Assembly: GCA_025352045.1 (NCBI GenBank)
Contig: JANXUD010000097.1
Coordinates: 1 to 32,993 of the forward strand
Direction: 5' to 3'
Source of the DNA: Gammaproteobacteria bacterium
GTDB lineage: Bacteria > Pseudomonadota > Gammaproteobacteria > Xanthomonadales > Xanthomonadaceae
Length of the DNA: 32,993 bases
In this document: one piece after another, positions 13,734 to 13,979 of the stretch
Position numbering within the stretch: the first letter of the stretch is position 1
Layout of the letters: every line of letters begins with the position of its first letter
The notes under the pieces: generated by a model
Told to the model about the DNA's origin: nothing
What the model saw: only the letters and a program-made list of their open reading frames with translations
Database searches by the model: none
Made by a program: the position numbers and the translations under genes

Positions 13734-13823
13734 GGAGAGGTGGCAGAGTGGTCGATTGTACCTGACTCGAAATCAGGCGTACGTTTGCGCGTACCGTGGG
13801 TTCGAATCCCACCCTCTCCGCCA
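13734..13823 (+). tRNA. tRNA-Ser (anticodon CGA)
   Basis: A 90-nt class II tRNA. The acceptor GGAGAGG pairs with CCTCTCC, the anticodon stem CCTGA/TCAGG holds the loop CTCGAAA, so the anticodon is CGA. A long variable arm (GTACG...CGTAC) and the T-arm GTGGG-TTCGAAT-CCCAC follow, and CCA is encoded. Its last 26 bases before the final CA are found again, interrupted, about 90 bp downstream. Confidence 0.97.
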
Positions 13824-13827
13824 AAAT

Positions 13828-13856
13828 AAAAACGCCCCGCGAGGGGCGTTTTTTTT
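13828..13856 (+). terminator. Rho-independent terminator of tRNA-Ser(CGA)
   Basis: AACGCCCC (13831-13838), loop GCGA and GGGGCGTT (13843-13850) form a perfect 8-bp stem with an upstream A-run and eight T (13849-13856). It lies 7 bp after the tRNA CCA. Confidence 0.95.
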
Positions 13857-13863
13857 GGCTGCG

Positions 13864-13979
13864 ACGGCGGGATCGAACCCAAGTGGGTTCGACACAACGG
13901 CGGGACCGCCGTTTTGCACGGTGCAGCCGCCCGAAGGGCGAGGGCCATGGATGGCCCGAGTGCATCCCACCCTCTCCGC
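13864..13979. repeat. Second, split copy of the tRNA-Ser 3' end with a 71-bp hairpin-rich insert
   Basis: The tRNA-Ser bases 13796-13821 recur in two pieces: GTGGGTTCGA at 13883-13892 and ATCCCACCCTCTCCGC at 13964-13979. In the tRNA these pieces are contiguous; here they are separated by 71 bp (13893-13963). The insert is rich in perfect inverted repeats: AACGGCGG-GA-CCGCCGTT (13896-13913) and GGGCCAT-GG-ATGGCCC (13942-13957), plus CGCCC-GAA-GGGCG between them. Before it, TCGAACCC-AAGT-GGGTTCGA (13873-13892) forms another perfect hairpin using the T-arm piece. ACGGCGGGA occurs twice (13864-13872, 13897-13905). This looks like a tRNA-end duplication (attachment-site-like or local) later split by a small palindromic repeat element. 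Origin is inferred. Confidence 0.75.

Follow-up and report, generated by a model that had tools for sequence, protein, structure and literature searches.

A probable tRNA-linked repeat behind a tRNA-Ser(CGA) gene, with two hairpin loops that look like CsrA sites

The window analyzed here, a 32,993-nt stretch of a Xanthomonadaceae genome (contig JANXUD010000097.1), carries behind its tRNA-Ser(CGA) gene an element that, judged by its sequence, almost certainly belongs to the tRNA-linked repeat (TLR, RtT-type) family. TLRs are a widespread but little-studied kind of bacterial repeat, and two hairpin loops of this one look like CsrA sites. Comparison with relatives shows a conserved core of four predicted hairpins, with a T-arm half on one side and, on the other, a tail copied from the 3' end of the upstream tRNA; the whole lies behind a terminator-like hairpin of that tRNA. 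The known kind is the tRNA-linked repeat; this apparent variant joins tRNA linkage with paired CsrA-type loops. Taken as a whole, the account given below, TLR identity together with a read-through RNA that would bind CsrA/RsmA, is in our judgment fairly probable. An earlier reading of the window (the sequence-only reading) had described the element but missed its family membership. The E. coli members of the family have been on record since 1978; according to PMC8144298, no function was known for them before its study of the three rRNA-linked ones.

Results

Anatomy of the element

The features of the locus are as follows; R1 is the core model described in the next section.

13734..13823, + strand: tRNA-Ser(CGA) gene, whose 3' end is copied in the element (ARAGORN; Rfam tRNA, 58.9 bits)
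13825..13856, + strand: terminator-like hairpin directly 3' of the tRNA, arms 13825-13838 and 13843-13856, the 3' arm T-rich (inverted-repeat search)
13857-13979, + strand: whole element, comprising antisense-like half, P2, 71-bp core, and tail
13857..13874, + strand: 5' strand of P1, a degenerate reverse complement of the tRNA 3' end that can pair with the tail (sequence)
13873..13892, + strand: P2 hairpin, TCGAACCC-AAGT-GGGTTCGA (sequence; MFE folds)
13883-13892, + strand: T-arm copy GTGGGTTCGA, overlapping the P2 hairpin (read directly)
13893..13963, + strand: 71-bp core with four hairpins, P3-P6 (R1 match at 13887-13966, 93.1 bits; folded alone, it gives P3-P6)
13896..13913, + strand: P3 hairpin AACGGCGGGACCGCCGTT, loop GGA at 13903-13905 (inverted repeat)
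13919..13929, + strand: P4 hairpin, GCA loop (core alignment, fold of core alone)
13930..13938, + strand: P5 hairpin, CCC-GAA-GGG (core alignment, fold of core alone)
13942..13957, + strand: P6 hairpin GGGCCATGGATGGCCC, that is, GGGC-CATGGATG-GCCC, loop GGA at 13949-13951 (inverted repeat)
13964..13979, + strand: tail ATCCCACCCTCTCCGC, identical to the tRNA 3' end up to but not including the final CA (exact 16-nt pair, repeat search)

Direct reading and a repeat search bore out what the sequence-only reading had reported here: the duplicated tRNA-Ser(CGA) end and its coordinates, the 71-bp spacing, and both inverted repeats. The source segment in the tRNA, 13796-13821, reads GTGGGTTCGAATCCCACCCTCTCCGC. 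The copied tail ends at CCGC (CCGCTC in the element versus CCGCCA in the tRNA), so the final CA of CCA is missing; measured against the 18- to 19-bp identity of TLRs, the tail matches at 16/18 positions, the exact 16-mer being followed by TC for CA. Recurrence of a 16-mer within 160 bp is far beyond chance, and chance or artifact was rejected as an explanation on the exact 16-mer together with the core-model match. By comparison, GTGGGTTCGA alone is weaker evidence of duplication, because it also contains the 3' arm of the element's own P2 hairpin. The gap between tRNA and element is 33 bp on the same strand, which is the placement of a TLR, and relatives are placed likewise. Going by its layout, the split tRNA copy is standard TLR anatomy.

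Within the window, R1 scored this copy at 93.1 bits and every other match at ≤11.8 bits; this copy is one of the ten cores from which R1 was trained. P1 is weak in the window copy, and a 109-nt fragment that includes the tail folds otherwise than the core alone. The hairpin at 13825-13856 was absent from the output of a simple terminator scan of the window; in many relatives, a similar hairpin with a T-run lies between tRNA and element. No T-run terminator was seen just 3' of the tail in the window sequence.

Relationship to known TLRs

There are 22 TLRs in 10 loci in E. coli, and the criterion for a TLR is that its final 18-19 bp agree fully with the 3' end of the gene before it (PMC8144298, citing Egan and Landy 1978 and Rudd 1999). 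The E. coli repeats and the window element have in common their position behind a tRNA gene, a 3' end that copies that gene's 3' end, the occurrence of tandem copies, and a homologous four-hairpin core. In contrast, the window tail is 16 bp rather than 18-19 and lacks the tRNA's CA, the lineage is another one, and the E. coli tyrV repeats read here are without the GGA loops that the window's tRNA-linked core possesses. The E. coli rRNA-operon TLRs (RrA, RrB, and RrF) share GGA in the P3 and P6 loops and lie behind the first terminator, but are linked to 5S rRNA and not to tRNA.

The Rfam family RtT (RF00391; rttR of the E. coli tyrT operon) shares with the window element GATGAGAA..GGTTCGA, hairpins, CCCGAAGGG, and GAGTAATCC followed by a tRNA tail; it differs in that the E. 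coli tyrT repeats have no GGA loops and that RF00391 did not match the window copy at its gathering score of 45, nor anywhere in the element up to E 10. Membership of RtT by the Rfam cut-off was rejected on that result. At open thresholds, an Rfam search indicated RtT RNA on several of the loci found in relatives. An RtT search matched 22 of 101 genomes of the order, 6 of them above the cut-off, with E. coli the sole match among 14 control genomes; the matches that were fetched lay mostly behind tRNA-Tyr, Ser, Gln, or Glu genes.

To reduce circularity, we built R1, a model of the core, from ten cores, the window's included. Its tRNA-derived parts are GTTCGA at one end and ATC at the other, and it contains no E. 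coli sequence. Run on seven E. coli stretches, R1 scored highest, at 37.2 bits in each case, where RrB and RrF lie (identified by their positions behind rrfB and rrfF); the three rttR repeats came next (28.1, 26.2, and 24.0 bits). Because a model without E. coli sequence picks RrB, RrF, and rttR first, we take the core to be homologous to known TLRs. The Xanthomonas sRNA sX7 (RF02226) also aligns to the window core and has a consensus with two GGA-loop hairpins; at 20.8 bits versus a cut-off of 55, its kinship to the window core is that of a candidate only. For the wider family, our literature search, in which subscription papers were mostly outside reach, returned TLR/RtT descriptions only from E. 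coli, other Enterobacteria, and Pasteurellaceae. The breadth reported here and the nesting in other palindromes exceed what the literature passages describe.

BLAST with the element matched 13 of 61 genomes (its own and 60 relatives), own included. Most relatives read have the same layout behind a tRNA, single or tandem (at four places in G037 and three in G049), and a tail that resembles that tRNA; loci L031, L033, and L036 have no tRNA nearby. A pattern search of genome contigs with a 20-mer of the tail gave one match, in a Falkowbacteria MAG, which was taken as chance. The uniqueness of the insert, on which the sequence-only reading had made its interpretation depend, was checked: the insert is not unique, as two further cores lie in tandem at the end of contig C127 of the same genome. 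R1 likewise found three copies in that genome, with the next best no better than E 0.08. At C127:1-174 (L002), the two cores follow directly on one another, without an intervening tRNA piece, at the contig end and upstream of tRNA-Arg(ACG); such arrays may break assemblies.

Direct repeats of tRNA 3' ends are classic integrase footprints, and the 16-bp repeat here is exact; the duplicate might accordingly be the attR of a lost genomic island and the insert a leftover. We regard such a scar as highly improbable, since many lineages have the same core between the two tRNA pieces, at genes for tRNA-Ser, Arg, Glu, Gln, Met, Tyr, and Trp. No integrase or transposase scored above the Pfam cut-off among the 20 window ORFs scanned (a subset of the ORFs), and the element had no match in the plasmid collection; a core from the own genome matched only two records of the phage collection, over 42 nt. 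With recurrence at seven tRNA types and no integrase in the scanned ORFs, an integrase scar was rejected as a general explanation, and the footprint invoked by the sequence-only reading is not supported. Its further suggestion, a chance landing in one tRNA copy, is unsupported because the tRNA-linked members read are split alike, as GTTCGA/core/ATCC.

Structure of the core and its frame

From 100 loci we obtained 146 cores, 137 of them distinct, for the core alignment; most dispersed copies of G162, G147, G186, and G256 and some same-genome loci were left out. Standard pairs filled 95.8% of the pair cells of the distinct cores versus 70.2% after shuffling, and the covariation score was 0.555. 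When the partner was slid by 1-3 columns, these values came to at most 52.7% and 0.058, respectively. All 21 of the 21 pairs show changes on both sides. Because the alignment was fitted to the model, these figures lean towards it; the gap is still large. As predicted from this alignment, the core is four covarying hairpins, P3-P6. Conservation as a structured RNA had been named in advance by the sequence-only reading as the outcome that would speak against a mobile element, and the pairing and two-sided changes just given are conservation of that kind.

The outer pairing is supported more weakly than the core hairpins. The putative P1 duplex of antisense half and own tail averages −17.5 kcal/mol versus −14.6 for mismatched tails, with the own tail better in 105 of 135 elements. 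Aligned without gaps, the antisense 5' half matches the tRNA at 10.4/18 positions versus 9.5/18 in controls; this gap-free match lends weak support to the 5' half as a plain reverse-complement copy of the tRNA end, and the half fits better as pairing potential.

The tails are usually copies of the local tRNA end. Over 95 cores, the mean match of the tail to its own tRNA was 14.7/18 versus 9.9 for tRNAs of other amino acids (two tails cut by a contig end were scored 0); the match was at least 16/18 in 52 cores, and the own tRNA beat every other amino acid in 74. Many of the tails that match poorly share the first bases and then diverge.

GGA loops and predicted CsrA/RsmA binding

Among the 137 cores, GGA loops are found in P3 (n = 107) and P6 (n = 105) and are rare in P4 (n = 7) and P5 (n = 2), which mostly have GNA loops. 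The two occur together: 99 cores have GGA in both P3 and P6, 8 and 6 in one only, and 24 in neither (Fisher, 1e-14, with no phylogeny correction). In the window's family, the corresponding counts are 32 with both, 3 and 2 with one only, and 16 with neither. Among elements retrieved with RtT, a family whose E. coli sequence has no GGA loops, they are 8/0/0/6 for the 14 of 21 elements counted; the other 7 were dropped for folding with fewer than three hairpins. Since 8 of the ten cores behind R1 are GGA-type and 2 are GNA-type, the high share of GGA is partly a matter of ascertainment. The C-G pair that closes P6 is nearly fixed (124/132), and the pairs below it change freely. A form of the CsrA/RsmE consensus is CANGGANG; it fits 81 of the 137 P6 loops, and the window's P6 loop with its closing pair is one that fits.

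Excerpts of PMC3856055 give the SELEX consensus of CsrA as RUACARGGAUGU with GGA in hairpin loops, and state that one CsrA dimer bridges two sites 10-63 nt apart. Folded alone, the window core presents two GGA loops, with the GGA of P6 lying 43 nt after that of P3 and thus inside the bridging range. With GGA in hairpin loops at a bridgeable spacing, the loop pattern is as expected of a CsrA/RsmA site, and we put the prospect that the window element binds CsrA/RsmA at about even. These loops had been noticed before we found the report that E. coli RrB binds CsrA in EMSA and that replacing three GGA of RrB, two of them in hairpin loops, abolished the shift (PMC8144298). In that source, as excerpted, RrB is the only TLR for which binding was shown by experiment; for the window copy, it is a prediction. 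RrB and RrF have GGA in both loops, CGGGA in P3 and AGGAC in P6.

Other TLRs are of the GNA type, without GGA loops, and the E. coli tyrT repeats are among them. Because the 19 tRNA-linked TLRs of E. coli have a CsrA score below 0.01 (PMC8144298), not all TLRs are CsrA ligands. The same source, as excerpted, reports modest effects only on CsrA-controlled traits and notes the later retraction of an early claim that tied the tyrT repeat to starvation. Northern signals have been obtained for RtT-type RNAs in Actinobacillus (PMC4986893, as excerpted). At L117 (G162) and L031 (G027), tandem cores lie between apparent protein genes, with the last P6 directly before an ATG; the P6 loop of L031 reads AAGGAGG, and the hairpin would cover the ribosome-binding site.

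The repeat might instead be a terminator or RNA-processing spacer that merely stabilizes or ends read-through tRNA transcripts, its loops being incidental. Its position directly behind the terminator-like hairpin of the tRNA would suit such a role, as would tails that copy the tRNA end recognized by processing enzymes, and excerpts of PMC2965389 list rtT-like repeats as candidate attenuators in Enterobacteria. A spacer leaves unexplained, however, why GGA loops stand in P3 and P6, are rare in P4 and P5, and are present jointly; we consider it improbable.

Distribution and linkage to tRNA genes

In the family sample, 91 of 149 genomes had an R1 match at E 1e-3; at E 1e-4, the class sample gave 94 of 229 and the phylum sample 77 of 299. 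Per-genome core counts are lower bounds, with 31, 20, or 15 candidates scored per genome. Because many of the aligned loci came from queries that carried a tail, the R1 sets give the fairer figures for association with tRNA genes; for family and class, these count the best copies per genome. A same-strand tRNA lay upstream at 23 of 29 loci from the family search (own-genome locus left out). Of the 29 loci in each set, 26 were aligned, and a same-strand tRNA was found upstream within 800 nt at 20/26 in the family and 17/26 in the class. As a control, 19 own-genome loci, which were weak BLAST matches (two with a short left flank), gave 0/38 tRNA-linked strand checks. In the phylum search, 3 of 19 copies read, chosen from the list, had a same-strand tRNA upstream. 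Dispersed copies without a tRNA are common in some genomes, and G162, G256, G147, G186, and G027 hold cores away from tRNAs.

Two further arrangements were seen. On the minus strand of the window at 20157-20374, tRNA-Ser(GGA) is closely followed by the small SRP RNA with no core between; at L029, a TLR lies between the genes for these two RNAs. At L212 and L214, which are outside the class, head-to-tail cores are joined as GAATCAC-AAT.. without tRNA or palindrome pieces.

The search for CsrA gave matches in 194 of the 229 class genomes sampled and in 180 of the 299 sampled from the phylum. In the phylum sample, 68 genomes had both core and CsrA, 9 the core only, 112 CsrA only, and 110 neither (Fisher, 1.1e-9); this table was hand-counted from result lists and is not phylogeny-corrected, and much of the co-occurrence is driven by lineages. 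Of the genomes with a core, 9 of 94 in the class and 9 of 77 in the phylum gave no CsrA match, some of them nearly complete (G270, G380, and G545), and CsrA as a strict requirement for the core is not borne out by these genomes. In the class sample, 4 of the 9 share their genus or family with a sampled genome that does have CsrA, and others (G270 and G380) are nearly complete. The window's own genome has csrA followed by tRNA-Ser(GCT) (C53, L258). At L035 and L041, too, a csrA-like gene lies directly upstream of tRNA-Ser(GCT), and here a TLR follows the tRNA; the putative ligand and its RNA thereby adjoin.

Palindrome loops and possible mobility

Two relatives carry the ~70-nt core in the loops of unrelated palindromes that also occur empty, which upholds the view of the 71-bp insert as a discrete module. 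In G162, a 22-bp palindrome is empty at 19 places (hand count), and 17 fetched copies have a 69- to 70-nt core in the loop; the 26-bp palindrome of G256 has 24 empty places, and the loop holds a net 72 nt in 4 fetched copies. A regular expression matched 19 of the 21 filled palindromes (15/17 in G162 and 4/4 in G256), and the other two were read by eye. Filled and empty palindromes stand at different genomic places, so that palindrome and core may have spread together.

In the window's genus, the element is present at 4 of 23 tRNA-Ser(CGA) loci (its own and those of G017, G008, and G004), as read by eye over 230 nt and then checked with R1. This patchy occupancy shows gain or loss at one orthologous site. 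At 10 of the 19 element-free loci, a DUF6165-like gene follows 74-141 bp behind the tRNA, and at two more it lies at ~1 kb; where the element is present, this gap measures 216 bp in G004 and 1090 bp in the window. The proposal of a nested module that is gained and lost is thus partly supported, namely by the palindrome nesting and the 4/23 occupancy, while its integrase component is not.

At L184 and L189 (G484 and G368), at ~1430-1600, the core interrupts the T-loop of a sequence resembling tRNA-Ser(CGA). This sequence lies shortly before an ARAGORN-predicted tRNA-Ser(CGA), as if a tRNA copy carried the insert.

These patterns allow for a module that acts at the DNA level only, a ~70-nt nonautonomous element that enters palindrome or hairpin loops, including T-arm copies of tRNAs. 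A recombinase or transposase would act on it, the hairpins would serve for single-stranded DNA recognition, and the RNA would have no function. Palindromes of G162 and G256 that exist both empty and filled fit such a module, and so do direct tandem cores without tRNA pieces in the own genome and elsewhere, the core in the tRNA-Ser-like T-loops of L184 and L189, and the 4/23 occupancy of one tRNA locus in the genus. However, filled and empty palindromes stand at different places, and the two parts may have spread together; the scan of 20 window ORFs gave no integrase or transposase; and the closing C-G pair of P6 and its ANGGAN loop are kept while other stem pairs change, which points to a ligand of the loop. 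We therefore view a purely DNA-level module as a minority possibility, unlikely but deserving of weight.

Discussion

The account that we favor combines TLR identity with an RNA that binds CsrA/RsmA. Read-through past the tRNA terminator would put the element into the transcript. There, the tail, mimicking a tRNA 3' end, could pair with the antisense-like 5' half (P1) and so close the structure, and it may also guide 3'-end processing. P3 and P6 would keep their GGA loops open, 43 nt apart, for one CsrA/RsmA dimer to bind both. Element RNA could in this way titrate CsrA in step with tRNA transcription, much as has been proposed for the rRNA-operon TLRs of E. coli. At the DNA level, the core would act as a separable module that sits in palindrome loops and is gained or lost between species.

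A bolder extension, which we hold to be rather doubtful, is that the core is a self-contained ~70-nt regulatory cassette, a two-hairpin landing site for CsrA/RsmA that has spread through much of Pseudomonadota via palindrome loops, and that, jointly with this, the tRNA 3' end is merely the best-known address among palindromes. If this reading is true, every copy gained would connect a transcript, whether tRNA read-through RNA or neighboring mRNA, to the Csr network. More generally, should the core be a much broader family whose paired loops are CsrA-type, the function of TLRs, a question of long standing, would become testable in many organisms. Filled and empty palindromes, for their part, give an approach to how repeats of this kind spread.
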